Part shown: positions 8,453 through 64,000 of the stretch, in pieces
How the letters are laid out: each line of letters opens with the position of its first letter
How positions within the stretch are numbered: position 1 is the stretch's first letter
From: Diphasiastrum complanatum
Taxonomy: Eukaryota; Streptophyta; Lycopodiopsida; Lycopodiales; Lycopodiaceae
NCBI GenBank assembly: GCA_029204225.1
Contig: CM055100.1
Location: 2,379,334-2,443,333, forward strand
Direction: 5' to 3'
DNA: 64,000 bases
Notes under the pieces: generated by a model
What the model saw: only the letters and a program-made list of their open reading frames with translations
Told to the model about the DNA's origin: nothing
Database searches by the model: none
Position numbers and translations under genes: made by a program

Positions 8453-8830
8453 CCTTTTAGGCCATAAGCTTTATGTACAGGTCTGATCTTCATCCCTGGC
8501 AGAAGTCACGTCCATTGAGCTTGAATCCCTTGTTCCATACCTCACTGTTTTCTGCTCAAGGGTCTCAGCTCTTTGGATCATAAGCTGGATGTGAAGTCAT
8601 TCCTGTAGCAGGAAATCACCGATCTCACTTTTCTCATTCCTACCTGTATTCTGCTCAAAGATCTCCGCTTTTTGGGCTTTAAGCTACATGCGCAACCATC
8701 GCTGTACTGCCCGTCTCACTTTTCCATTCCTCACCGTTTTCTGCTGGGAGATCTCAGCTTTTTGGGGCATAAGCTCTATTTGCTGTCATCCCTGTTGCAG
8801 GGAACGGCCCATTTGACCATAGTTCATTAC
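8453..8830 (+). repeat. Imperfect tandem repeats in the DUF579 leader
   Basis: About four diverged units begin with a CTTTTTGGGC.TAAGCT-like core at about 8453, 8569, 8669 and 8759 (period about 90-116 bp). Units share CTCACTTTTC.CATTCCT, TTTTCTGCT and GATCTCAGCT boxes. The array ends just before the start codon at 8839, so it probably lies in the 5' untranslated leader. Confidence 0.7.
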
Positions 8831-8838
8831 TAGTGATC

Positions 8839-9735
8839 ATGCTGAAAGGTAGGCTGCTTATGTCATTCATTTTTCTGAAAAAGAATCACCAAGTTGTCAC
8901 TGCCGTGGGGTCAGTCCTTTTTTCAGGTGCAGCTCTAGCTTTCTTGCTCGTATTCACGTCCTTGAAATTTGCAGTAACTGGCCCCCTGATCGATCACCTG
9001 CCTGGCTTTCAAGAATGCTCAAGATTCAATAATACAAAGCCGAGCAGTATTCCTCCAGATCTAGCTTTAGCATTGCTTCACTTTGCTAAAACTACCCAGA
9101 TTCCCCAACAAAGCAAAGAAGAGATCAATGTGACTTTGCAGATATTGCAGCAAAGGTCTCCATGCAACTTCCTAGTAGTCGGTATGTGGCATGACAGCCT
9201 ATTGTGGGCAGTACTCAATCATGGGGGGAGAACAGTCTTCCTGGATGAGAGCCAAGAGTGGATTGACAGAATGGGAGAGAAGCATCCTCAGCTGGAAACA
9301 TACAAGGTAGATTATCCCACTACCCTGGGACAGGCATCTAGCTTGCTAGAAAATGCAAGGGATAGAAGATCCACAGCTTGTAGCCCGAACCAGCCCATTG
9401 AGAGCTCACCCTGCCCACTTTCACTGTCCCCAGTTCTTCCAAGAAAGCTGCTGACAGTAGAGTGGGATGTGATCCTCATAGATGGGCCTCGGAGCTATAA
9501 GAACCTATCTTTTCCAGGAAGAATGAGCCCCATTTTCTCAGCTGCAATCATGGCAAGGAGCAGGACTGCTCCTGGTCATGTGGATGTACTCGTGCACGAT
9601 GTCTCTCGCCCAGTGGAAAGACAGTATGCGGAGGAGTTTCTGTGCTTGAGCAATCTTGTTTCCAGTGTAGATGATCTATGGCACTTCAGAATCAGTCCAA
9701 GTAATTATTCTACGTTCTGTCCAAGCTCCTCTTAG
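8839..9735 (+). CDS. DUF579 family protein (glucuronoxylan methyltransferase / IRX15-like)
   Basis: An intronless 298-residue protein. A single membrane-spanning segment near the N terminus (about residues 20-42, hydrophobic GSVLFSGAALAFLLVF) fits a type II Golgi membrane protein. The DUF579 core follows: NFLVVGMWHDSLLWAVLNHGG and RTVFLDE near residues 117-145, VEWDVILIDGPR near 210, PGRMSPIFSAAIMAR near 228, and VDVLVHDVSRPVE with YAEEFLC toward the C terminus. In land plants this family includes GXM enzymes, which methylate glucuronic acid side chains of xylan using S-adenosylmethionine, and the IRX15 proteins needed for xylan deposition. The HDSLLW form resembles GXM, whereas YAEEFLC resembles IRX15, so the subfamily is undecided. 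The ATG at 8839 is preferred; a GTG six bases upstream is in frame. Length and domain order match the family and no lesion is visible. Confidence 0.9.
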   Translation: MLKGRLLMSFIFLKKNHQVVTAVGSVLFSGAALAFLLVFTSLKFAVTGPLIDHLPGFQECSRFNNTKPSSIPPDLALALLHFAKTTQIPQQSKEEINVTLQILQQRSPCNFLVVGMWHDSLLWAVLNHGGRTVFLDESQEWIDRMGEKHPQLETYKVDYPTTLGQASSLLENARDRRSTACSPNQPIESSPCPLSLSPVLPRKLLTVEWDVILIDGPRSYKNLSFPGRMSPIFSAAIMARSRTAPGHVDVLVHDVSRPVERQYAEEFLCLSNLVSSVDDLWHFRISPSNYSTFCPSSS

Positions 9736-22898: not shown

Positions 22899-23277
22899 AT
22901 TCCGCAGAAGGACAGGCTTTCATCTGTTTGGAGGATTTGGCAGGCTATTCAATCAGCTAAAGATTCCAAACTGGAAGCTGGAGGGGAGGTTTTGGTTTAA
23001 CTAAGGGAAGAACTTGTGATGCTTATTGCAAAGATCTGTATTTTGTACTTGAAGAATATTGAAATTTGCATCATAAAAGAGAGATTTGGGCTTGAGAAAT
23101 TCGAGGGAAGATTGAGAACAGCAAAAGGAATTTTTCTAGCTACTCTTATAAGATTTTGAGTAGTCGCAAAACTCCTTTTATTTAATTATTTTGCAGAGTC
23201 AATTGAGTATTGGGATGCTTATGTAGCAGAGACAGATCGAATTTTGCAGCATAATAGAGTGATTTTAGCTTTAGAAA

Positions 23278-24600
23278 ATGGGGAGGGGTAGAAAACAGCA
23301 AAAGGGTTTGAGGATGGATGATCCCGATGAAGACACTGCCAGCACTTCTTCCACCAGTGCATCATCAGATTTGGTTGTGAACCCAAAGATGGAAGAGGAG
23401 CATGACGAAGAAGCCTTACTTGAGGGTTTCATAGAAGCTCTTTATGAGAAAAGGGCAAGTATTCGCGAAGCCGCCCTAAAAAGTCTCATAAATGCGTTCA
23501 CTGGTAGTATTTTGGATGATTATGTTGAACAAGAATGGGAAACTCTGTCCAGTCTTCTTATTGGCTCGATCAAGCGCGGGTCTTCGTCCGAGACCGCATT
23601 GGCAGCCCGTGCTCTCGGATTGCTGGTTGTGACGGTAGGTTCTGGAGATGCTGCACAGAATCTGCTTGCTGAGGCCTCCCCCCATCTTGCGAAGGTTGCA
23701 AAGCTTGGATCGGACGCATCTATCCGCATCTCAGCTGTGGAATCACTAGCAATTTTGGGTTTTGTTTCTGGTGTAGAGGATGATTCTATTGAGAAAGTGA
23801 TGGCCATATTGTGGCAAATTGCTACACATGCGGGGGATCAGCACGCAGATCAGACATCGGGTATGATCAAGCCCTCGTCTGAACTTAGGGCAGCAGCCAT
23901 TACTTCGTGGGCAGTGCTTTTGTCAGCTTCACCTTTCAATTCCAGCTTTAGCAATCATGTGTTTGACAATCTTTCAAGTCTATCTACACTACTGGATACA
24001 GGAAGTCTGGAAATCCAGAGAGCTGCAGGGGAAGCCATTGCGCTAATATATGAAATGTATAATTCAAACAAACACATGGAAGATTCTTTCCAGCATTCAG
24101 TCTCTGACAATGCGACAGACGTGAACAAAATTATGCAAGCAAGGGAGGATCAGCTTCTTGAGCAGATGAAGGCTTTGTCCATTGAAGCTGGGGGGAAAGG
24201 ACATTCAAGGAAGGAAATTTCTTTGCAGCGGAGTTCGTTTCGCGGGCTTGTAGCTTCAATAGAGGATGGTGTATGCCCAGAAACGCATATCCGGCTTCGA
24301 CATGGTGATATTTTGAAGATAGATACTTGGATTAAAACCCTACAGTTAAATGCATTTCGAAAGCTTTTGGCTCAGGGTTTTCATATCCATATGCAGGAGA
24401 ATAGTCTTCTTCATGACATTTTTGGGTTTTCACCTCGCCAAGAGAAGCAAAAATCCTTGACTGCAAAAGAAAAGAGGCTCTTTTTTTCCCCCAATTCTGT
24501 CACAAGCAAAAGGAGGACTCAGGTTAGGAACCATAGCAGGTCAATTGCTCAAGCTGGAAATGTAGGCCACTATCGTTTAAATGAAAGTGAGATTGATTAA
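23278..24600 (+). CDS. Interferon-related developmental regulator (IFRD) family protein
   Basis: An intact intronless protein of 440 residues. It starts MGRGRKQQKG and has an acidic Ser/Thr-rich N terminus. The IFRD domain is an ARM-like helical repeat: FIEALYEKRASIREAALKSL near residue 50, the VEQEWETLSSLLIGSIKRG block near 83, and SSELRAAAITSWAVLL near 200. The C-terminal IFRD_C signature follows: RSSFRGLVASIEDG, TWIKTLQLNAFRKLLAQGFH and MQENSLLHDIFGFSP around residues 320-390, then a basic tail. Family members are nuclear or cytoplasmic transcriptional co-regulators; plant ones are little studied and linked to stress responses. The ATG at 23278 follows an AG-rich leader and a probable leader intron. 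Length matches plant relatives. I see no lesion. Confidence 0.9.
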   Translation: MGRGRKQQKGLRMDDPDEDTASTSSTSASSDLVVNPKMEEEHDEEALLEGFIEALYEKRASIREAALKSLINAFTGSILDDYVEQEWETLSSLLIGSIKRGSSSETALAARALGLLVVTVGSGDAAQNLLAEASPHLAKVAKLGSDASIRISAVESLAILGFVSGVEDDSIEKVMAILWQIATHAGDQHADQTSGMIKPSSELRAAAITSWAVLLSASPFNSSFSNHVFDNLSSLSTLLDTGSLEIQRAAGEAIALIYEMYNSNKHMEDSFQHSVSDNATDVNKIMQAREDQLLEQMKALSIEAGGKGHSRKEISLQRSSFRGLVASIEDGVCPETHIRLRHGDILKIDTWIKTLQLNAFRKLLAQGFHIHMQENSLLHDIFGFSPRQEKQKSLTAKEKRLFFSPNSVTSKRRTQVRNHSRSIAQAGNVGHYRLNESEID

Positions 24601-48371: not shown

Positions 48372-49005
48372 TGTGAAAGATTTCAGATCCTTAAGATCCG
48401 ATCTACTTGAATGATCTTTGGTTAGAAAGAGAAATACACTACAATTTCACCAATGTAGAAAAATCAGCATCTACACACAATTTGAGATGCAAACACTAAT
48501 AGAACTTGATCAAACTTGAATGAAATGATTATGTATTGTTGCTGTCCATACAAAACCAGCAAGCTACTGTATTTCACACGTGTGGATCCAAAAATAACAA
48601 ATATAGATCATTCTACACATAGAATTGCAAGCAATCACCAAGATAGTGCATCAATGGATAGTAGAACCCAAGAGAACCATGTATAAGCATGAAATGAGAT
48701 AGAGAAGAGAGAAGATCAATCTGTCCACGAGTTACATCCTTTTATAGCAGGTCCAAACCCTATTTGGCCACTTGGCTTTCCCACCAAAATGCTAACCCTA
48801 CCAATTTTGGGTCTAGATTCAATGTACCCAACTTATTCAAATTGAATCTACTCAAACTCGCATTCTATCTTTCTCACACATTCAAAAAGTGTTTATTCAA
48901 ATGAAATTTAGACTAATGAACTTTGAAAAGTCAAGCTCTAAGTCTAAAACAAGTTTAAATATGGAAATATTGCAAAATGTGAGGAAACTAGTTGAATCTT
49001 TCACA
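48372..49005 (-). repeat. 3' LTR of the complete Copia element
   Basis: 634 bp, with ends TGTGAAAGATT and AATCTTTCACA forming perfect short inverted repeats. A purine tract GAAGAGGGAG lies immediately upstream on the minus strand. The LTR contains a TATAAAAGG promoter motif. Confidence 0.95.
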
Positions 49006-50965
49006 CTCCCTCTTCAACTAGTTTTAGCATAGACTTTGATAATACTCCAAGTGAAGTCCTATGCTTCATGAACAAGTCTTTTTCCAATGCTTTGGTGAAG
49101 ATATCAGCTACACATTCCCTTGAAGACACATGTTGAAGCTCCACCTCCTTTGCAATGACTCGCTCCCTCACAAAATGATATTGTATCTCAATATGCTTGC
49201 TCCTAGCATGAAAGATAGGATTGGATGCCATTCTTTGGGCTGATTGATTGTCACAAAAGATGATTGGGCTCTCTGAAAAATCCAGCAAGTGAATATCCTT
49301 GATCATCCTTTTGATCCATACCATCTCCTTTGTGAAATGTGTAAGAGCTTTGTACTCGGCCTCACTAGATGACAATGAGATAGTGGCTTGTTTCTTTGAC
49401 ATCCATGATATAGCTCCATCACCTATGAAAATACAATAAGCACTAATGGATTTCCTATCCATTACATCTCCAGCATAGTCCGAATCTGATAATCCAAAAA
49501 GATTAGGTGATGATCCCTCATACAATATGCCAAAATCTCGAGCTCCAATGATGTACCTCAAAACTCGCTTTCCTAGCTTCCAATGCTCCTCACTAGGATC
49601 TTGCATGAATTGACTCAATCTTCCAACACAATAGCTTAGATCAGGTCTAGTAATGGTTAGATAGATGAGTGAACCAACTAGCTTTCTACAAAGAGTAATG
49701 TCCTCGAAGGATCTTTCATTACCTCTTACAGTTAGCTTTACATGAGACTCCATAGGTGTATCAATAGCTTTTGCATCCACCATATGAAATCTTTCTAGAA
49801 TAGAATTAGCATACTTCTCTTGACAAATGAAAGTAGATTGAGAAGATCTAATGACTTCTATTCCTAAAATGTAATGCAAATTACCAAGATCATGCACCTC
49901 AAACTCCTTCTTAAGAGCATTCTCGATATCCTCCACATCTTGATTGTCTCCACCACTCAAGATGATATCATCCACATAGATTAGCAAGATGGTAACATCA
50001 TTTCCAGCAAACCTATAATAAAGTGAATGATCATACTCACTCATAACAAAGTCTTGAGAGAGTAAAAAAGTGTTAAGCTTAGCATACCAACTCCTTGGTG
50101 CTTGCTTAAGGCCATACAAACTCTTTTGTAGAAGACACACATGATTTGGCTTTGTTGATGAAATGTAGCTCTCGGGTTGCTCCATGTATACTTCCTCCTC
50201 AAGATCACCATTCAAGAATGCATTTGAAATGTCCATTTGCCATAGATCCCATCCATAAAGTGTATCAAGTGAAATGATGACTCGAATGCTTAGCATCTTT
50301 GCCACGGGTGCAAAGGTCTCATCATAGTCAATTCCTTGTTGTTGAGCATATCCTTTTGCCACTAACCCTGCCTTGTACTTGTTGATAGATCCATCTTGGT
50401 TTGTCTTCACCTTGAAGATCCATTTGCATCCAATAGCTTTCTTGTCCTTAGGCAACTCCACCAATCTCCATGTTCCATTCTTCATAAGAGCTTGATACTC
50501 GAGATCCATTGCTTGGATCCACTCCTCTTCTTTCCTTGCCTGATCTACACTTGTAGGCTCATCCAAAGAGGTTAGGAAAGCAACATAATTTCCAGAAACT
50601 ACTTGCTTACCCTTTTGATCATATGTGAGCCTTGAAGGTACTTGTCTTTCTCTTGATGTTCCCCTTGGCTTTTGACTTGATGAAGGTCCATCATCACCAC
50701 CATCCAAAGTAGGATCCTTCTCATCAACATCAACAATGTTAGATCCATCTATTTTACCATCAATCATGCTTGAAGACACCTTTGGAATGTTTCTCTCATA
50801 AAAAATGACATCTCTACCAACAATCACTTTGTTAGTAGAAGGAATGTAAACCTTATAGGCTTTACTCACCTCACTATATCCAACAAAAATACCTCTTCTT
50901 GAAGATGGATCCTCCTTGGTCCTATCATCTATCGAGAGTAATGTTGACATAGCATGTGCATCCAA
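49001..50965 (-). CDS. Copia pol, integrase C-term, reverse transcriptase and RNase H
   Basis: A 654-codon frame that overlaps the upstream gag-INT frame by about 40 bp. It covers the integrase C-terminal part (RRGIFVGYSEVSKAYKVY), reverse transcriptase (CKWIFKVKTNQDGS, DISNAFLNGDLEEEVYMEQP, SLYGLKQAPRSWY, catalytic YVDDIIL near 49980) and RNase H (LSDSDYAGDVMDRKS, SLSSSEAEYKALTHF, KHIEIQYHFVRE). The stop codon is inside the LTR start (GTGTGA). It copies element RNA to DNA. The break from the first frame is a single shift in the integrase, probably a small indel rather than programmed frameshifting, because Copia elements normally use one ORF. Confidence 0.92.
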   Translation of the reverse strand: MDAHAMSTLLSIDDRTKEDPSSRRGIFVGYSEVSKAYKVYIPSTNKVIVGRDVIFYERNIPKVSSSMIDGKIDGSNIVDVDEKDPTLDGGDDGPSSSQKPRGTSRERQVPSRLTYDQKGKQVVSGNYVAFLTSLDEPTSVDQARKEEEWIQAMDLEYQALMKNGTWRLVELPKDKKAIGCKWIFKVKTNQDGSINKYKAGLVAKGYAQQQGIDYDETFAPVAKMLSIRVIISLDTLYGWDLWQMDISNAFLNGDLEEEVYMEQPESYISSTKPNHVCLLQKSLYGLKQAPRSWYAKLNTFLLSQDFVMSEYDHSLYYRFAGNDVTILLIYVDDIILSGGDNQDVEDIENALKKEFEVHDLGNLHYILGIEVIRSSQSTFICQEKYANSILERFHMVDAKAIDTPMESHVKLTVRGNERSFEDITLCRKLVGSLIYLTITRPDLSYCVGRLSQFMQDPSEEHWKLGKRVLRYIIGARDFGILYEGSSPNLFGLSDSDYAGDVMDRKSISAYCIFIGDGAISWMSKKQATISLSSSEAEYKALTHFTKEMVWIKRMIKDIHLLDFSESPIIFCDNQSAQRMASNPIFHARSKHIEIQYHFVRERVIAKEVELQHVSSRECVADIFTKALEKDLFMKHRTSLGVLSKSMLKLVEEGV

Positions 50966-52943
50966 AGGTTCTTAGAAAGTTGACACTCGGCCTCCTCTTG
51001 AATAGCATCTCAAAAGGTGTCCTTCCATCCAAAATAGCACTCGGCCACCTATTGCACAAGAAATTGGCACACAACAAAGCTTGATCCCAAAATGGTTTGT
51101 CAAGATTAGCACTTAACCTCATAGCTTTAGCACTTTCACATAAAGTTCTATTCTTCCTTTCAGCCACTCCATTTTGTTGTGGGGTCCTTGATGTTGTATA
51201 CTCCCTCTTGATCCCATGCTCATCACAAAAGGCCTTGAATTTGTTAGATATGTACTCACCACCATTGTCACCTCTCAAGCACTTGATCTTTGTGGAAAAT
51301 TGGTTCTCCCTTGCATTCTTGAACTTGACAAAGACATCATACACTTCATCCTTGCCCTTTAGTAGATAGATCCAACAAAATCTACTAAAATCATCAATGA
51401 ATGTTACATGCATCTTAGCTCCACTATTGCTAATTGTAGTAAATCCATGAATATCCGAATGTACAAGTTGAAAAGGCTTTGTAGATCTAGAAATAGATCT
51501 AGTATAAGGTAGTCTATGTGACTTAGACAAAGCACAAGACTCACAAACATGCTTGTCATTACTTAAGGAACTTGGAAGACCAATCACAACCTTCTTCCTT
51601 GCCATTACCTCCAATGACTTGAAGTTGAGGTGTCCCATCCTTTTGTGCCAAACCTCGTGAATAGAAATTTGCTCCCTTGCAACACATCCAACTTGGTTAG
51701 CAATAACACAAGCATCAAGTTTGAACAACTTCCCTTTCCTTTTACCTTTTCCAATCAAGACATCCTTCCTTTTGATCAAACAAGCATCTCCATCAAACTC
51801 CACCTTGAGGCCCTTACTTAGCATTTGACTCACACTAAGCAAATTCTTGGTAATAGATGGAATAAAAAAGACATCCTCCAAATGAACATTCCTATTTGTA
51901 GAGAGAGAAATAGGAATTATGCCAATCCCTTTGATTGCACACTCACCATCATTGGCCGTGTAGATCACCCTCTTGTCATCTCCATATGCCAACAAAGAGG
52001 TGAAGTACTCTTTGTGAAATGTCATGTGTGAACTTGCTCTACTATCAATCCACCAAGGATCTAAATCTCCATCATTAGCAAGCATACATGAAGACATCAC
52101 AAAAGCATCATCATTTGCATCTTGCACATCCAAACCATCCTCATCAAGAGTAAGATTACCTTGCTTGTCTCCTTGATCTCTCTTCTTCTTGTAGCACTCA
52201 CTTGCAAAGTGTCCTTTGATGCCACAATAGACGCACTTGAGCTTTGATCTATCCTTCTTTTTGCCACTTGAAGAAGCATCCACTTGATCTTGCCCTTTAA
52301 ACCACTTGCTTTTGGTTTTGCCCTTGAATTTGCCCTTTGTGAACATAGCATCCTCTTGAAGTGTCGATGTAGATCCACCTCTTGCTTGAAGCCTATATTC
52401 CTCATTGATCAAGATCTCTTGAAGATCCATCAAACTTGGCAAAGTCTTTTGAATAGCAATACTTTGAACAATGTTAGCATGAGCATCCAACAAGCCATTA
52501 AGAATCACTTGAATAAGCTCTCCTTCCTTAATGCTTTCATCTATGCAAGCTAACTCATCATTCAATGCTTTCATTCTCAAAACAAAAGTACTTGGACTTT
52601 CTTCATTCTTTTGCAAACAAGAAAAGATTTTCCTTCTTAGAGTCAACACTCTAGAAGTAGACTTGGATTCATAAAGCTTCTTCAATGAATTCCAAGCTTC
52701 CAAAGATGATGTGCACTTACCAACTTCCTTGAGAAGTTCATTGGTAACATTCATCTTTATCATGTGTAGAGCCTTCTTGGCCCTCTTGTCATACCTCAAT
52801 TGATCTTGTTGTGTTGCTGGTATCTCCTCCAAACCTACAACATTCATCTCAAGAAGTGACTCCATCCTCACTTTCCATAATGAATAGTTACTTGAGGTAA
52901 GCCTATCATTGGCTTCCAACATGACTCCAATTGAGGTTGCCAT
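50925..52943 (-). CDS. Copia gag, protease and integrase core
   Basis: A 672-codon frame starting MATSIGVMLEANDRL. gag UBN2-type region (LLKEVGKCTSSLEAWNSLKK), CCHC knuckle CVYCGIKGHFASEC near residue 235, protease motif WWIDSRASSHMTFH near residue 297, pre-integrase VWHKRMGHLNFKSLE and CESC, then the integrase D-D-E core: HSDIHGFTTI, FIDDFSRFCWIYLLKG, RGDNGGEYIS, RTPQQNGVAERKNRTL. The protease carries DSR where the active site needs D-S/T-G, so this copy probably cannot process its polyprotein. The frame ends at FGCTCYVNITL, where the second frame takes over. Otherwise it looks freshly inserted. Confidence 0.93.
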   Translation of the reverse strand: MATSIGVMLEANDRLTSSNYSLWKVRMESLLEMNVVGLEEIPATQQDQLRYDKRAKKALHMIKMNVTNELLKEVGKCTSSLEAWNSLKKLYESKSTSRVLTLRRKIFSCLQKNEESPSTFVLRMKALNDELACIDESIKEGELIQVILNGLLDAHANIVQSIAIQKTLPSLMDLQEILINEEYRLQARGGSTSTLQEDAMFTKGKFKGKTKSKWFKGQDQVDASSSGKKKDRSKLKCVYCGIKGHFASECYKKKRDQGDKQGNLTLDEDGLDVQDANDDAFVMSSCMLANDGDLDPWWIDSRASSHMTFHKEYFTSLLAYGDDKRVIYTANDGECAIKGIGIIPISLSTNRNVHLEDVFFIPSITKNLLSVSQMLSKGLKVEFDGDACLIKRKDVLIGKGKRKGKLFKLDACVIANQVGCVAREQISIHEVWHKRMGHLNFKSLEVMARKKVVIGLPSSLSNDKHVCESCALSKSHRLPYTRSISRSTKPFQLVHSDIHGFTTISNSGAKMHVTFIDDFSRFCWIYLLKGKDEVYDVFVKFKNARENQFSTKIKCLRGDNGGEYISNKFKAFCDEHGIKREYTTSRTPQQNGVAERKNRTLCESAKAMRLSANLDKPFWDQALLCANFLCNRWPSAILDGRTPFEMLFKRRPSVNFLRTFGCTCYVNITLDR

Positions 52944-53531
52944 GTAGCAATGACCTGATCTTCTCTTTCAACCTGCTTCAATGCACAAAGCACTCCTTTG
53001 AACAACAACAAATGCTTTCACAAGAAATCACCAAGATTTGAAACTATCTCACAAATTCTCTTCTAGCACTTATCCAAGCAAATCAACACATAGAATCATG
53101 GAATCTTGATCAACCTATGATCTATCCTCAATCTAATGACTTTTGCCACTTCCTAAGATTGAAACACACTCAAATGAAGTCCAGCAACCTCACTATCTAG
53201 AGATCCAATCAAAATTAGGGTTTTGACAAAATCACAAAAAATTGACTATTCCAAATCTACATGCAAATGCTGAAAAATTTGATATGCAATCTATAAGCCA
53301 CCACTTAGGCTGAACCAATGATCCAAAAATCGGCCAAATCCAGTATGTGAATTCAAAAAAAGGAATTGAACAAGTATATTGACCTATTTAGTGTTTTGAT
53401 CTACAAAAGATCCAATCTACAAAAGCAAAAAATCCGATTTTGGTGTAGAATCCTCTCTAGCATGCTCTAGACTTGATATCTTCACCAAATCATTGATAGA
53501 TCTGATTTCCTCCTTCATAACCTGAAACACA

Positions 53532-54540: not shown

Positions 54541-57282
54541 ATATGCCAAAAGCTAAAAGAAGCAATCACAAATACGTGAAGATTGTATGTTTTACCAAAC
54601 AACATATTTTGTGGCATACGACAAACTTTGGCATACTTCAAAAACTTGGTTTGGCAACAAATTAAAAAAATTATTTCTAATGTGGATATAGTACCGAAGG
54701 GTGATCACTAGAATGATGGTCTGAAACCATACCAAACCTGCCCCAGTATGGTGTAAGTGCTACAAGTAGCGGACGTACATGAATAGTTGCCCATAAACTC
54801 ACTGGGAAAGTGGCACAAACTGAATGACTCAATCTATTTTACGATGTCTTTGGTAAAAAATGTAGAAAATGCAAAAATTTATTCTATGTTGCTATTTGCA
54901 AAGAAATTAACGTCTACACGGCATCACTTTCCTCTGGTTCAAGTAACACTCACACCTGCAATGCATCATGACAATGCGTTATCAATCTAGATTTGTGACA
55001 TTAAAAACAATGGCAAATGGATGTTAAAAAATCAAGTTGTAGCACTTTTCTCCCCAATAATTCACCTCAAAAATCAAACTGCAGGACTTATCGTTGGCTC
55101 ACCCCAATAATTCACTAGCCATTTGTAAAGATCAGTCTGGTTTTCCAATCCGACGACAGACCTACCAAGGCTAGTGGCCTCATGCAACAAAGTGCCCGTT
55201 CCAACAGTGAGATCAACTATGACATCACCAGGATCGCTAAATAGTTGTACAATATAATTCATGAGATTTCTTCCTCTCTGCGCTCCACCTATGCAAAGAT
55301 TACAACAATAGTTAATGAAAACTCAATCCATGGTGGCAAAAATGGGTGCAAAATTATGGCAAAAATTGGGCGCAAGTACATGATGGCAAAAAGATGTAAT
55401 TTCACCTCTCCATGGTTTGCTACTTAAATCAAGTTCCCAGTCACTGCTGTTGATGTTGTCCGCAACATAATCTCTAAAGGGAGTCCAACATTTACTTCTC
55501 AATCCGCGAAAGTGCTCTATATTATAACGTCCTCCTACTTTCATATCTCTTTTGAACCTAGACATATGTAATATATGCACCTACGCGACACCATTTAAGA
55601 TTAGTGTCCTCACATTAAAATGGACAAAGCTTAATGAAACAAGTAAAAGAAGGGAAATCCGCAACACATGACCTCACCTCCTCGTTCATGTCATAGAAAG
55701 CTGTAGTGGAGCACAAGATTACTTGAGAATTGATATATGTAAGATGTTCATACTCGGCATATTCTCGAAGGCTGAACATCTCATTTTTGGTGTGTATGAC
55801 TACAAAGTGTCCCTCATCAGCAAATACCCTCTTTGACAGTGCGAACATACTTTGCATCATTTCTGAATTGAATTCATTCCATAAAGGAATATTAACGTCC
55901 ATGCCAAAAACCAACAGACCATTAGGAAGCATTGCAATCACCAACGGTGATGCATGACTCACCTCCTCATCGTTGATGTGGAGAGTAGTAGATCTTTTCC
56001 ATGCTAATCTTACAACATTTTCAAGGCAAAACACTCCATGGAGAACATCATGTTTTACTAGTCTACTACCCAATGTAAAACATGACTCATTGATCAACCT
56101 GACCATATTCTCTTGTGGATCATATGAGGCATGGCTCTTACCCGCATCAACATTCTCTTGCTCATACTAATCAGGCGAAGATGGCTCTCCATGACTACGA
56201 GATTCTGATGATAAAACATGATCAAATTTATCACCTGTTGTAAAAAAAATTGCATAAACAAAATGATCATAATTTAAGAACATTACGGATGAAAAATGAT
56301 TGTAAATATATGCATGTGAAAGAAATTGCTATCTACTCACGAGAACTAGAGGTATAGGTCTTCGTTGTAGTGAAGTTTCGTGGCCTCTTGGTACGATCTC
56401 GTAAAATCCTTGTCTATATTCACAAGTAGCACCAAATAAAAAAAAGTAGAAAAAAATTGACACAAACAAGAAGAAGTTATGATGCATACACAATTTACTA
56501 AAAATATCATACTTGTGCCTCTGTTGCCTTCTTTAATAGCTTGCTTTCGTGTAAAAAATTTTCTTTCTCGTCTGATGGATGGGAAAATCCAACCACCATG
56601 GACAATGCTTGAAAACCCATGTGCTCCATTTGCTATTTTTCATTGAGGATGTGTACATGCAATCATTATTTGCTGAATCACACCACTCCAAGGCCATGGG
56701 AGGCATGTACTCCAAGTTTTTGGTATTTACTTGAACGCTCAGCCATCTACATTGATTTATGTAAAAACATGAAATAAGAATTGCAATTAATAGAGATGAA
56801 ATTAATATCAACTTGCAAGAAAAAAATATTAATATGCAATACCTCACCTGAACACAACTCTCTGTGCTGCCAAAGCCAGCCTTGGTTGCTTATTAAAATC
56901 ATATGATGATTTGGCTTTTCCAATCATCTCTAAGAATACTTTTGGAAAGTTCTTTCTCTTGTACTCTCGAGTGTGCAAAGAAAATCGTGTGGATCGTAAT
57001 CTCATGTCATAGCTAGCCTCCATATTTCGGAGTATAACAATACCAACATCAATAATCTGATCCCACAAGACCTCTTTCACAAGATATACTCGAAAGGTCT
57101 TGTTATCTGCAATCACCAAAACATTCGTGGAAGTGTAGACTGACGACAATGAGTGCAATTGCATATAGAAAACGACAATATGTTAAAATTTACCAGTTGG
57201 TATGTGGAGTTGTTTTCTAAAAGGATCATCTTCTTTAGTTAGTGCACGTGCAACGTTTGCCTTGTGATCTTGGGACAACTTC

Positions 57283-58364
57283 TGTTACATACCTATGTAA
57301 CTAGCAGTACTTCAGACCCCTAATAGTCCATTTAGTGTTGGGGGCTATATGGCAAGGTACCCTTAGGATTAAGGGTATGTGCCCTTGGATAAGGGCAGGC
57401 AAGTGACTATACCTTAGTTGGAAGTATGGGGTCACGTGACCCTTGGATAAGGGGTACCCTTACTATTAACGGTAGGTGCCTTAGATTAAGGTACTACTAT
57501 CCTTGATTAAGAGCAGGTAGGTGTCTATGCCTTGGATGGAGGTAAGGAACCTAGTGAGGTGTTAGAAAGTCAGTGGATGACTATTTTTCTAAACCTTGGG
57601 CCTCAACCTTGAACCATATCACTTTATTGGTCTAGGACCAAAGTATACTTGCAGAACTTGGGCAATGGGACCTAGTAGGAGGGCGCCCTTCTAAAGTGTC
57701 CATTGAGTTCCCAACTCCCACAAGAAAGGCATTCAAAGAGTCATAGGTTATGGAAGGAGTCTCTTGACATTCCATAAGTCTATGGAGGCTCTTGGAGATT
57801 CTTTAACTCCCCTAGGCTTCTCTCTCTCTCTCATTGAATGAGCATGGAACTCCATAGTGCATTGGAGGGGTCCATGGGCCATCTATATGAGGGTAGTAGG
57901 GCACCCATTGTGGAGGAGAGATCTCTCTTGTTTGCTTGGCTTATGCTCTAGTGTTGCTACTAGTGTGTAGAGTGCTTTCTTTTGGTAGTATGCTTGAGGT
58001 TTGGATCTTGCTTATGGTATGGGACATAAGTAGGGTTTGGATCTTGAGTATGCTATGGAGTGTTGTGGTATGCTTGTGATTTGTTTATGGTTAGCAAGGG
58101 GGGTGCTAGATAGGTCTTGCTTGGAGCTTGGATCTAGCTATGGTTGGCTGGTGAATACTTGAGGCCAGCTTGTTATCTATCTTTGTGTTTAAAGAGTAGG
58201 GACACATGTGGAGGAGAGATCCTTGGAGGCTTGCAGATCCTTACTTGCAGGTGGAGGCATCCTAGCTTGGAGTTGGGGAGCATCTAGAAGCTTGCAGGTT
58301 GCTTGGAGGACATTTGGAGGCTCTACCTTGGATTTGGAGGACTTCCTCACCTCTATTTGTAAAA
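57283..58364 (+). repeat. 5' LTR of the Gypsy element
   Basis: 1082 bp, TGTTACATACC...TTTGTAAAA. The last 330 bp are repeated almost exactly at 61527-61858. The right terminus is not the usual CA, but it is set by the target duplication and the primer site. It contains many ACCCTTGGATAAGG-like short repeats near 57370-57500. Confidence 0.85.
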
Positions 58365-58365
58365 G

Positions 58366-58377
58366 TGGTATCAGAGC
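58366..58377 (+). other. Primer binding site of the Gypsy element
   Basis: TGGTATCAGAGC, the exact complement of the plant initiator-Met tRNA 3' end used by many LTR elements, one base after the LTR. Confidence 0.93.
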
Positions 58378-58780
58378 TAGACAAAGGATGGTAACCTTTC
58401 TAACCTTCTTCAAGTTCTATTAAGATCACCAACTAATTTTTTTTTTTGGGAAAGATTATAGGCTTTTCTAATTGTAGGAAGCTTGTAGTTGAAGTACCCA
58501 ATGAATCTAGTTCTCTTTGGAAGAGAGTAGTGATGCTTATAGAATTGTTTAGGGGCTGATTTTTTATAATGTTAGAGAAGTTTTAAAGTGGGCTTTGGAT
58601 TTTTAAAAGTTCTGAAAAAGGATTTGTGGGATAGGTAGAGGAAGTCTTCATCTACATACAGAAACTTTTTTTTGGCAAAAAGATTGATTCTAGCTATGTG
58701 TTTTGATCAAAACTAGTGTTTTTTTTTGCATAAATGAAGTGTTTGAAGTTCTGATTTTTATTTTGAAGTTTTGTTTTTTT

Positions 58781-59060
58781 AGACCTGTAAATCTGAAAAT
58801 CAGATCTGAAAAGTGAAGTTTTCATTCAAACTTCATTAGTTACACCTTTCTATCTCCTAGTTTCATGAAGATGACAATGTAGGAAGGGAATGCTAGTGTA
58901 ACTTTGTGCGTAAAACAAGTTTTGAAATTCTATTTTTTGTCATTTTGAAATTCTGATTTTCAGACCTGTAAATCTGAAAATCAGATCTGAAAATTGAAGT
59001 TTTCATAAAGCTTCATTAGTTATCCATTTCTAGACGCTAGTTTCTTGGTTTTGGAAATCT
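58781..59060 (+). repeat. Duplicated segment in the Gypsy leader
   Basis: AGACCTGTAAATCTGAAAATCAGATCTGAAAA followed by TGAAGTTTTCAT...CTTCATTAGTTA occurs at 58781 and again at 58962, a 181-bp period. Each copy has the palindrome-like CTGAAAATCAGATCTGA. Confidence 0.8.
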
Positions 59061-59422
59061 AGAATAGTGAGAAATGTGAAAACTTTGGTTGCTTTTGAAA
59101 TGACAAATAGAATTGGAATGGGAATGGAATGGGAAATTTATGTAAACATTAGCTTGGATTAGTTGATTGAAGTTTACATAAAGATTTGGTTTTCATTTTT
59201 GCTTTTGATTAAGGCAAATGTAGCTTGTTGTTGTTTTCCTTTTAAGCTTGGATTAAGCTTGCAAATAGTAGGCTTGGATTGAGCTTACAAACAATTAGAT
59301 TGAATGATTAGAAGTAAACGCTTTTTATTTGCATTGGATGTAACAATTGAAGCATTTCTATCATTCTAATTTGAGCACTTGTTGTTGTATTTGCATAATA
59401 GGAAAACACACAAGCAACCCCA

Positions 59423-61526
59423 ATGGATCAAACCAATGAAAACCCAACATTTGATCTATCAAACCCATCCAATGTAGCACAAGCTCTTGAACTATTATAC
59501 CAACAAATTCAAGCCACTAATAAGCAGCTTCTTGAAACTAATCAAAGAAACCAAGACTTACAGTCTAGGTTAGCCAATCAGAAGAAACATGTAGTTCCAC
59601 CTCCTGTAAAAGTGTTTAAGGGGGAGAAGAAGGATAGGAACTTACAAGTGGTAAGTTCTTGGCTGAATGTTTGGAACAAATACTTTGCCATGAACCAATT
59701 CCCTGAATCTGAGAAGCTATCCACTGTCACTATGTTCCTTGAAGGAAGAGCCTTAGTTTGGTGGGATGACTTAGTTGCAAAGGGCAATCAACCTTGTACA
59801 TGGGATGATTTTTGCAAGCTTTTTAGGGATTATTTTCTACCACTTTTAGATGACTATGAACACTTCCAAAAGTTGAGTCATCTAACCATGAATAAAGGTT
59901 TGGAACAGTTTATTCAAGATTTTCATGAGTACTTGAATCCACCTTATAGTGATATTCTGCCTAAGGTACAAATGTTAATGTTTATTGATGGGTTACCAAA
60001 AGATTATCAAGTGGATGTTCGTAGGAACCATCCAAAAACCCTAGAAGATGCTATTAGGGCTGCAAAATACTTTGATGACACACCTAAGCCACCTAGGGGT
60101 CAACAGCCTAATGAGCAGAAAAAAGGTTTTCAATTTAAGAGGAAGGATAGGGAAGTTGTTAATGAAACACATCCCAATTCCAACAATCTTAAGAAAACCA
60201 AGAAAAACTTTAAAAAACATCATGGTGGCAATGATAAAGTTGAAGCTCGTAAGAAGAACCTGTGCTTCAAGTGCAATGGCGAGGGTCACCTTGCACGTGA
60301 TTGCGACAAAAAACAAGCTTCAACCTCAGGTAATCTATCTCGAAGTAATGAGATGGATGTTTGTTTCCTTAGTTCTTTAGTTTTTGGTCCTAATGACCTT
60401 ATTTGCATTAAAGGTAAAGTTAATGATCTAGCTGTTAATGTTCTTTTTGACACGGGATCCACTCATAACTTTATTAATGTAAATTTGGTGCAGATGCTAA
60501 ACCTTCCTACCAGAAAAAGTGAGAAAAAATACCGTGTGACAATGGCATCGGGAACTAATTCCGATTTGATGGATTTTATTGTTTCTGATGTAGAATTGCA
60601 CATTCAGGATTATTCTGAAAAACTAGAATTCTATGTTGTTCAATTAGCTAATGTAGATATTGTTCTTGGGCAACAATGGCATTTTGATAAGAACAAATCA
60701 TTGAGAATCGATTTTGTTGAGAAATCTTTATCTTTTATGCATGAGAATTCTTTAATTAAGATCAAGGCTAGTTTAAGTGTTGACTCTAAAAATGTTAACT
60801 CTGATTCTAAACAGAAACTTAATTCTATTATGAAGAATTCTGATTTTAAAGTTTATTTATGTTTTCATAATGATATCATTTGCTCCAATGATGAAGAACT
60901 TAACATAAATTTCATGAATATACCCAGTGAGAACCCTACAGAATTTGAAGCCTATAATGAACTTAGGCAGGAATTCAATGATGTTTTTTTAGACCTTCCT
61001 GTAGGTTTACCACCAGATAGGACAGTTGATCATAAAATTGACCTAATATCTGGAGCAATTCCAATTGCACAGCGTCCTTATAGGATGAGTGCATCGGAAG
61101 AGGCTGAGGTAAATAGGCAATTACATGATTACCTGAAAAAGAGGTGGGTACAACCTAGTAAGTCTCCATGGGCATCACCAGTGGTTCTGGTGGCCAAGAA
61201 GGATGGGACTATAAGGTTTTGCATCGACTATAAGAAATTGAACAAGGTAACCGTTAAGAATAGATATCCACTGCCACAGATGGATGATCTAATAGACTAT
61301 CTTGGTGGTGCTGGGTACTTTACCAAGATAGATTTAAGATCGGGCTACCATCAGATACGCTACCAAAAATCGGGTTTCGAACTCGCTTTGGTCACTACAA
61401 ATTTTTGGTGTTGCCTTTTGGTTTGACCAATGCACCGGCAACTTTCCAACAAATGATGAACGATTTGTTCAAGCCATATTTGGGAAGATTCGTAGTGGTA
61501 TTCTTAGATGATATCCTAGTGTTCAG
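59423..61526 (+). pseudogene. Gypsy gag-protease and truncated reverse transcriptase
   Basis: A 667-codon frame from ATG 59423 (MDQTNENPTFDLSN...). gag retrotransposon domain (SWLNVWNKYFAMNQFPE, TMFLEGRALVWWDDLV, FIDGLPKDYQVDVR), CCHC knuckle CFKCNGEGHLARDC near residue 285, aspartic protease VLFDTGSTHNFIN near 340, and reverse transcriptase from [69 protein letters not shown] frameshift near 61380 moves [20 protein letters not shown] and the catalytic FLDDILVFS to another frame. Deletion right after FLDD removes the RT C-terminus, RNase H and integrase. It cannot move on its own, although gag and protease look intact. Confidence 0.92.
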
Positions 61527-61858
61527 TAGGGTTTGGATCTTGAGTATGCTATGGAGTGTTGTGGTATGCTTGTGATTGTTTATGGTTAGCAAGGGGGTGC
61601 TAGATAGGTCTTGCTTGGAGCTTGGATCTAGCTATGGTTGGCTGGTGAATACTTGAGGCCAGCTTGTTATCTATCTTTGTGTTTAAAGAGTAGGGACACA
61701 GGTGGAGGAGAGATCCTTGGAGGCTTGTAGATCCTTACTTGTAGGTGGAGGCATCCTAGCTTGGAGTTGGGGAGCATCTAGAAGCTTGCAGGTTGCTTGG
61801 AGGACATTTGGAGGCTCTACCTTGGATTTGGAGGACTTCCTCACCTCTATTTGTAAAA
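61527..61858 (+). repeat. Truncated 3' LTR of the Gypsy element
   Basis: Begins TAGGGTTTGGATCTTGAG, matching 58032 onward in the 5' LTR, and runs to TTTGTAAAA. About the first 750 bp of the LTR are missing. It has a few single-base differences from the 5' copy. Confidence 0.9.
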
Positions 61859-64000
61859 ACTTCGTGCAAGCTATATTGTATAATCTCTCCTCTGTAACAG
61901 ATTTCTATCTTTTAGCATGCTCTGTTTTGCATCACAGATTATGCAAGATCTTTCTACACCAAAGCTATTATCTAAAATTTCAGATCAAGCATTCATCTGA
62001 TTATTACAGTTTGCAAGGAAAGGTTGTAAGACTGAATTTTTTAATTATCAGATTTGCAAAATTGTAATTTCAGTTAGATGGAAAAGTTAAATGGTGTTTA
62101 TGCAAGCACAGTCCAGATTCCGCAGTAGGTTAATGGAGAGAGCAACCAGAGTAGAAACTAGAGCAACCAAGCAGGCTCTGATTACTCATTGCCACCATGA
62201 CTGGTGAAAAGGCTCTAGTAAGAAGCTCCATCGCCAGATCGACACGTAACACAACACTAAACAAAAATAACATTTGTTATTTTTTATAATACTCATCAAT
62301 AAACTTGACAAACATTTTGATGAAAATAATTAAAATGAAATATAATGTATTGACAAAACTGCTTACTTATAAAATTCATCGCCGTTGGCTGGATTTGCAA
62401 GTGTGGCCAACTTTCATGTTTGACGTCTACATTTCAAATCCAATGCATGAAATGTTGTAGCCCACTCCACCTCGTAATTAACTAGCGGAATCGAGTTTTG
62501 CTTTTCAAGAACAGGCTGTAGCTCCAAATGATATACATCCTATATATTACATAGAACCACCAAAAATCAATCAACACATAAAACAAGTTGGAAATAAAAA
62601 TGTGTAGTAATTTTATTTTAAAACGTGCAATGTAGCAAAGATGAGTCCTTACCTGGTACACCACTTGAGTAAGAACTCCAAGTGGACAATTGTACCATGC
62701 TTTAAAGGCACCCTTGTTTTCTTTTTAGCACTTAATAAGTCAACCATGTATTTTTTATCCTCTTCTGTCACGTGCTTTAGTAAGCTAGCCTTATCGGACT
62801 GGCCCAATGCTCGAATCATGCATACCTTGTCACTGATGGTGGTTTTTATGAAGCCCGTCTCATTTAATCTACAAAAAGAGTTTGATCACGTTATGCAATC
62901 AAGATGTGATTCATGTCTAAAAACAAATTGAACATTCATAATTCATAGGTGATGAACTTATATACCGATTCATATGCGCTAGTGCTGACAACAACTCCCC
63001 CTCATCATGCTCTCCTATCTCGACAATATTGACATCCACTCGAGGGTGGAGCATGTGATCATTTGAAAAATCTACACAAAAAAAAATATAACAAAAAGTC
63101 TATTACTTGACATCAATACATGTGAGGCAAATCAAATTTATTAGAAGATAAAACAACAAATGTGCTACTTAGTCTTGGTGATTTCTTCCATGAATGCGCG
63201 AAGCCTATGGTTTCCATCCCACACGTAAAGCATTTTATTACTTAAAAACCTCCAATCATTGTTGTGACTAAGCTCATTTTCAAACTGTGCATTTATTTGT
63301 TGCCATATAGGATCCCACCCAGCCATGTATGTATCCATAGTGCGCTCCTCATTCTTGGGTGTTTTGAGCGAGCAAATAAAATGTCCTTTTTGCTTGACGT
63401 AGCCATGCATGTAAAATTCAATGCATACTTGTTTGTAACGATCACCCAACTGTCTAATTGTGGAATTGGGAATCAGTCGGCATAAGGGAATTGTGGGAGG
63501 AGCTGTACCCCTTGACACCTTTGTGGAAAAAGAGAAATATAAGTGTTTATGGCTTAGAAAAATAGGAAGGTAATGCATAGCCTAGGCAAGGTAATGCACG
63601 AGATTGTAAGTGCAATATTTTACCTGTAATCGATCCATAACAACCTGAAGTAAATCCAACTGAAGTTTTTTTGTCGTAGGAAACAAAGTGACCAGGTTCT
63701 TCATCTTCATCTTGTTCATCATCATCTTCTTCAAGAATGACGTATGAACTCTGCCATTAGTGAGAGAATAACAATAGTCAGCTGCATATACTTCTAGGAA
63801 ACAAATGCAATCAACATAATTTGATAGTCTTTGAGTCAACCTGGCTTTCTACATTCTTTTGTTTTGAGGCTCCTTTTGGGGTCCTCCTCCTTTTCACAGA
63901 ACTACCTCGACCTTCCTCCACTGTCATTGCGCTCTACAAAACAAAAATAAAACCAAGAAAATAAATAGGAAAAAAAAATTCAAGTATTCACAAAATAGTA

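Follow-up and report, generated by a model that had tools for sequence, protein, structure and literature searches.

Does a plant nuclear genome carry an intron-bearing gene that joins a ParB-like domain to a DNA amino-methyltransferase of bacterial type, and could its product methylate DNA? A locus of the lycopod Diphasiastrum complanatum raises this question. It lies in a stretch of 64,000 bases on contig C9 (C9:2379334-2443333; hereafter the window) of an assembly of 1,744,706,496 bases in 5,176 contigs, in which 16 of the contigs C1-C24 range from 10.9 to 101.6 megabases. We found that the family to which this locus belongs is a high-copy dispersed repeat, a point that the original prediction for this locus had missed; each half of the gene returned at least 150 scored matches genome-wide, and the picture of a lone transfer is not upheld. 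The ParB-like/methyltransferase family is real and unusual, and its sequences suggest that it probably does not methylate DNA in the clades seen. The window locus itself is best explained as a defunct member of an old plant nuclear family that bears introns and exists in many copies.

At least 12 exon-like stretches lie on the minus strand of the window at 55103-63933, in agreement with the intron-bearing gene with GT-AG exons that had been predicted there (Table 1). We read the exon borders from the DNA, with no RNA behind them; a script confirmed AG and GT borders at 11 of the 12 candidate exons, and by eye exon 8 (56513-56746) has them too. The gene extends beyond the window end, with at least one further exon at about 64.2-64.5 kilobases (kb) in extended coordinates (L039:2249-2494; L numbers denote loci), and this additional N-terminal exon of the window clade reads GEVFQAKSGEMLHNRPLPKNHV...AWPIDRL. 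It is reminiscent of DUF8039 of plant transposon-associated proteins; a Pfam search with the same exon gave no match. The copy had been described as broken, and this proved correct, as exons 6 and 10 contain in-frame stops and a Ty3/gypsy retrotransposon interrupts an intron. The element carries direct repeats at 58029-58364 and 61525-61858 that are 98.5% alike, its insertion left a 5-base target duplication, and the uninterrupted site is present in L015.

The predicted beta-class amino-methyltransferase domain of bacterial type was recovered by profile searches. Exons 11 and 12, when joined, matched PF01555 (N6_N4_Mtase) with 34.5 bits and an E value of 2.7e-8, above the cut-off of 26.7 bits, and matched PHROG methyltransferases at up to E 3.1e-8. 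The exon of L044 that bears the S-adenosylmethionine (SAM) motif scored 21.9 bits against PF01555, under the same cut-off. Along the chain, motif IV stands ahead of motif I, as read from the exon order in both the window and L044.

Both halves of the gene are abundant throughout the assembly. Two ParB-exon queries, with 829 and 1,088 candidates, each gave at least 150 scored matches, those of the latter query falling on every one of contigs C1-C24, and a methyltransferase-exon query gave at least 161 scored matches from 840 candidates; these figures are lower bounds for the repeat, yet they include unplaced contigs and segmental duplicates. Unplaced contigs such as C329, C2394 and C4631 repeat chromosomal copies. 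Three blocks of more than 8 kb (L041, L042 and L043), found once on C6 and twice on C8 with one of them inverted, are 98.6-99.7% identical; each holds a ParB-exon copy followed by what by eye is a copia-like piece, and they represent recent large duplications. The exon pieces of the two domains belong to one gene, as originally proposed, being collinear in L010, L044 and L066 and pointing the same way no more than 7.6 kb apart at eight places, counted by eye and with the window's own included, where about 0.05 would be expected by chance. The paralogues in which an intact gene was to be sought are present in number, but none was fully intact among the few that could be read over long stretches, namely the whole of L044 and L066 and portions of L067, L068 and L073, and in L044 the frame seems to break close to the N-terminal part.

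Comparison of copies revealed how they arose and how selection has acted on them. In introns as well as exons, the window is about 92-96% identical to L010-L012 and L015 in most pieces and 79-86% identical to L013, L014, L018 and L024, while L044, L066, L067 and L068 share 91-95% identity in their main blocks and down to 77% in smaller pieces. Because introns match like exons between close copies, copying is at the DNA level and not via spliced RNA. Within the ParB exon, the ratio of nonsynonymous to synonymous differences per site (pN/pS) ranged from 0.52 to 2.25 for the six pairs among the window and L010-L012, with 2-5 synonymous changes per pair, and from 0.29 to 0.33 for four pairs with L013. 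For the 72 between-clade pairs, out of 78 among 13 sequences, pS was 0.67-0.94, at or near saturation, and pN was 0.26-0.54. In-frame stops occur in 6 of 15 L044-type copies (L053, L054, L055, L063, L064 and L065), a set made up of the 20 loci L046-L065 minus the repeats L047, L049, L052, L059 and L060. The nearly saturated pS with lower pN between clades and the weak constraint among recent copies reveal a protein that has long been constrained and recent copies that are decaying. The earlier idea of an old eukaryotic family is thus upheld, with clades near synonymous saturation and a conserved protein.

In beta-class amino-methyltransferases, motif IV is expected to read (D/N/S)PP(Y/F). The window clade (window, L016 and L032) has IAMLPNG or close variants (MLPNG, MLPTG, MVPNG) at this position, and in the L044 clade the motif is missing from L044 itself and reduced to D and P, without the aromatic residue, in L066 and L068. 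An intact motif IV is therefore absent from all six copies read, which represent two clades; clade L073 is interrupted there by what by eye is an apparent copia element. L032 ranked 11th of 1,676 plant open reading frames against a phage methyltransferase profile, with a match just after motif IV that was not significant (E 1.2). As motif IV is either changed or absent in the two clades that were read, a DNA-methylating role of the family, including the suggested laying of N6-methyladenine (6mA) or N4-methylcytosine (4mC), is not supported so far.

A second methyltransferase family in the same genome looks different in this respect. PF01555 gave at least 150 scored matches genome-wide from 1,605 candidates, all over the cut-off, and those read (L001-L008) belong to this second family, which carries DLFSGSGTTSACA or a close variant and shares 34.5% identity over 55 residues with the window SAM exon. 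It is high-copy, its motifs DIPYG (seen in L004, L005, L006/L045 and L008) and DLFSGSGTT look intact, and its reading frames are split as if by introns. We rejected treating the two families as one: the second has other exons ahead of the methyltransferase, and the two upstream regions examined, of about 7 kb each (L045; L072 joined to L005), yielded no ParB-like exon. A fragment of the second family, scanned against viral contigs, returned nothing informative. Because its motifs look intact, the second family appears to be a better candidate 6mA or 4mC writer than the ParB-like family.

The identity of the domain ahead of the methyltransferase is less easily settled. The exon with the DGNHR motif is real and kept across paralogues, with W118 and D119 invariant in a 19-row alignment (A3), but the ParB/sulfiredoxin fold proposed for it drew no relevant family match and only marginal profile-profile scores; likewise, the profile searches suggested at the outset found PF01555 but neither ParB_N nor another ParB family. 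Searches of Pfam, NCBIfam and PHROG with the window and L044 ParB-like exons, and of NCBIfam with L033, gave nothing relevant. ParB_N (PF02195) matched 0 places at E<=1 over the whole genome and was positive in 11 of 14 control genomes, in an exon-by-exon search that may be blunt. A PDB sequence search with the 19-row profile recovered no ParB chain, HMMER in both directions across 1,962 phage and 1,676 plant open reading frames was negative for the ParB-like exon, global hhalign of the plant profile against the phage ParB-methylase set was negative, and neither ParB exons run against viral contigs nor A2 run against genome contigs gave anything informative. AlphaFold2 modelled the DGNHR exon alone with low confidence, at a predicted local distance difference test (pLDDT) score of 49.8.

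As a reference, we used L081, an open reading frame of a Christensenellales phage fetched via PF02195, which is a ParB-methylase fusion (PF01555 at 4.7e-21; ParB_N at 3.2e-5, just under its cut-off), together with the best 80 of 494 viral relatives, reduced to 39 sequences in all. Against these, hhalign of the plant profile gave a marginal score of 22.6 (P 0.015, probability 2.9%), which 3 of 200 column shuffles equalled and the reversed profile, at 13.4, did not; an earlier run with fewer plant sequences gave P 0.036 on another island, and a mixed ParB set gave 17.1 (P 0.082; 4 of 200 shuffles as high). Relaxed realignment to both ParB sets reproduced the correct succession of landmarks (helix and GY, DGNHR on GxHR, strand, helix), the plant ALLSSMNRIN helix falling on the ALNIVLNK helix of the ParB-methylases and, in the phage set, WDGNHR on the ParB GGHxR motif. 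In our own judgement, which is not a computed probability, the DGNHR domain is fairly likely to be a ParB domain.

Many dispersed copies of the family are alike in both coding and noncoding DNA, the pattern by which transposable elements are recognized, and the dispersion and selection pattern fit either a mobile element or the cargo of one. In many L044-type copies the gene is closely preceded on its 5' side by a palindrome of about 124 bases, which is imperfect, with 85% self-complementarity at L046:884-1007; by eye, 14 chromosomal ParB matches have it upstream. A genome search for it gave 90 matches, many counted on both strands, and more than one lies near some copies (L054 and L057), with several inverted copies in L057. 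One role weighed for the palindrome was that of a terminal repeat. The 5' limits of L044-type copies are ragged. A shared sharp 3' end, considered as a transposon terminus, was rejected as private to L044, with six other copies running on together. Farther 3', among 41 matches, 22 reach the query end and 14 break off at position 140, and these two extents may reflect two subfamilies. No reverse transcriptase or recombinase was noticed in reading the open frames of the L044 and L066 units, the full units not having been systematically scanned for transposase.

The best explanation as a whole, which we hold to be evenly poised between right and wrong, is that the family is an element or the cargo of one whose protein couples a pseudo-methylase scaffold to a ParB-like, DNA-acting part. 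The family would persist as a self-propagating element or as cargo, and selection would act on the small number of copies from which others arise. Its protein would run from an N-terminal segment through a probable ParB-like domain and a linker to a beta-class amino-methyltransferase-like domain. Because this last domain is without an intact motif IV in the two clades read, it would there most likely be a DNA- or SAM-binding scaffold; the ParB-like part would be the conserved DNA-acting part, and the protein might bind, and perhaps nick, DNA during spread of the repeat. It is a tentative and rather improbable extension that this is a new plant mobile unit, in which an intron-bearing ParB-like and pseudo-methyltransferase protein with the palindrome of about 124 bases ahead of it descends from a methylase fusion turned into a DNA-handling protein of a selfish element. 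Several observations weigh against the element-or-cargo explanation. Neither a terminal repeat pair nor a target duplication of the unit was seen, and the 3' limit was not reached; some of the duplication is plainly segmental (more than 8 kb at about 99%). Copy counts are inflated because unplaced contigs repeat chromosomal copies, as with L047, which is 99.9% like L046. Some constraint may remain among the recent copies, the 15 L044-type copies (105 pairs) giving a pooled pN/pS of 0.71. The ParB identity is not confirmed by sequence search, and an active clade may exist, because motif IV in L066 and L068 still has its D and P and only two clades have been read.

The segmental duplications also suggest another history, in which a host family with no mobility of its own was multiplied by such duplications and by neighbouring transposons, under birth-and-death evolution. 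The near-identical blocks of more than 8 kb do hold a copy, the 5' limits are ragged and the terminal structures unseen, and transposons are close at hand, with Ty3 in the window copy and what by eye are copia-like pieces in L041 and L073. We consider this history rather unlikely, as matches on each of C1-C24 and the approximately 90-95% DNA identity in the main pieces of many L044-type copies look burst-like, and weakly constrained recent copies on constrained deep branches are typical of elements. A comparable, minor likelihood attaches to DGNHR being a plant-specific domain unrelated to ParB, which would leave the methyltransferase part alone as bacterial-type. The lack of relevant matches in Pfam, NCBIfam, PHROG and PDB, the genome-wide silence of PF02195, the negative HMMER and global hhalign comparisons and the low-confidence model all favour such a domain, whereas the relaxed alignments order helix-GY, GxHR, strand and ALN-helix correctly against two ParB sets, at scores that few shuffles reach.

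That an old bacterial ParB-methylase fusion moved to plants and still lays 6mA or 4mC seems to us quite improbable. Such a writer would account for a domain order equal to that of phage fusions such as L081 and for the SAM motif kept by the window copy, but not for the altered or missing motif IV of both clades, the broken window copy, the want of a complete, unbroken gene in the small number of copies read over long stretches or the sub-threshold SAM exon of L044. Bacterial contamination or a misassembled bacterial insertion, for which the bacterial-type domain and nothing else speaks, was rejected as exceedingly improbable given the introns, the at least 150 matches dispersed across chromosome-sized contigs, and the presence within the window of two plant genes, IRX15/GXM and IFRD.

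Table 1. Parts of the ParB-like/methyltransferase gene in the window, its inserted retrotransposon, and places in the genome where the two domains are collinear. Positions are those of the window unless a contig is named.
Feature	Position	Strand	Remarks
Exon 1 of window, N-terminal segment	63841..63933	-	AG/GT borders, open frame; the gene's first exon lies elsewhere
Exon 2, acidic segment	63624..63750	-	AG/GT borders, open frame; phase gives no clean join to exon 3
Exon 3, probable ParB/sulfiredoxin-like domain with WDGNHR	63169..63518	-	Open frame; aligned to 18 paralogue exons
Exon 4, ParB-like domain continued	62966..63071	-	Borders; by position, contiguous sequence in L044
Exon 5, linker start (LNETGF...)	62653..62868	-	Borders; L073 match 29%, E 2.5e-4
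Exon 6, linker with in-frame stop	62367..62539	-	AG/GT borders
Exon 7, linker	56848..57106	-	Borders; region collinear in L012, L015, L018, L024
Exon 8, linker	56513..56746	-	Borders by eye
Exon 9	56341..56413	-	AG/GT borders
Exon 10, methyltransferase motif IV region, IAMLPNG	55678..56234	-	Borders; in-frame stop just before 56166
Exon 11, methyltransferase	55406..55580	-	Borders; relatives genome-wide
Exon 12, methyltransferase SAM motif DLTVGTGTLLHEA	55103..55288	-	Borders; best stretch of PF01555 match
Ty3/gypsy retrotransposon in intron	57283..61858	+	Pfam Ty3_capsid, protease, reverse transcriptase
Collinear place	C9:2442501		Window copy, stretched by the gypsy insert
Collinear place	C7:14034951		
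Collinear place	C13:16916695		
Collinear place	C5:59575623		
Collinear place	C5:66837235		
Collinear place	C14:46472363		Perhaps one duplicated block with the next
Collinear place	C14:46779609		Perhaps one duplicated block with the preceding
Collinear place	C6:15851560		

Elsewhere in the window, the plus strand carries an IRX15/GXM glucuronoxylan methyltransferase-like plant gene at 8773-9732 (PF21729, E 3.6e-65) and an IFRD plant gene at 23275-24597 (PF05004, E 1.4e-66). On the minus strand at 49001-52967 are two long open frames of 656 and 680 amino acids, by eye the gag-pol of a rather intact Ty1/copia element.

If the element-or-cargo explanation is true, a plant genome would hold a DNA-methyltransferase gene of bacterial type in well over 100 copies, a gene that has been under long protein-level selection and has lost its intact catalytic motif in the clades seen, raising the question of what role a dead methylase could play for an element or its host. 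The family would also be an intron-bearing addition to the known eukaryotic repeats that bear DNA methyltransferases. The second family, with its intact-looking motifs, offers a testable 6mA or 4mC candidate in a plant.

Among open-licence PMC papers, no title or abstract beginning described a plant ParB-methylase family. In PMC5512222, ParB domains are described as nucleases or NTPases, and a ParB-adenine-methylase fusion of Bacillus cereus is cited with nicking activity. PMC5890265 describes DNA methyltransferases by the hundreds in the retrotransposons of dinoflagellates, as well as Dam-like methyltransferases in DIRS elements. Marchantia 4mC enzymes are mentioned in PMC8885841 and PMC8566409, and appear as a reference in PMC10952607.

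The plant family resembles the phage ParB-methylase fusions (PHROG 498; L081; and Bacillus cereus Bce_0392, described in PMC5512222) in joining a ParB-type domain, a linker and a C-terminal beta-class methyltransferase with motif IV ahead of motif I. It differs from them in its introns, altered motif IV and high copy number, as well as in an insert of about 50 residues before DGNHR in the realignment, and its ParB homology is only marginal. Like the DIRS elements with Dam-like methyltransferases, SymbioLINE-Dnmt and SymbioDIRS-Dnmt3, it comprises many dispersed eukaryotic DNA methyltransferase copies; those retrotransposon genes, as presented in PMC5890265, differ in that a reverse transcriptase is present, more than 90% are intronless and the methyltransferases are of C5 or Dam type. 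With the bdelloid N4CMT (PMC8885841) and the Marchantia DN4MT (PMC8566409), the family shares the presence of a bacterial-type amino-methyltransferase in a eukaryotic nucleus, but both of these are described as active enzymes.

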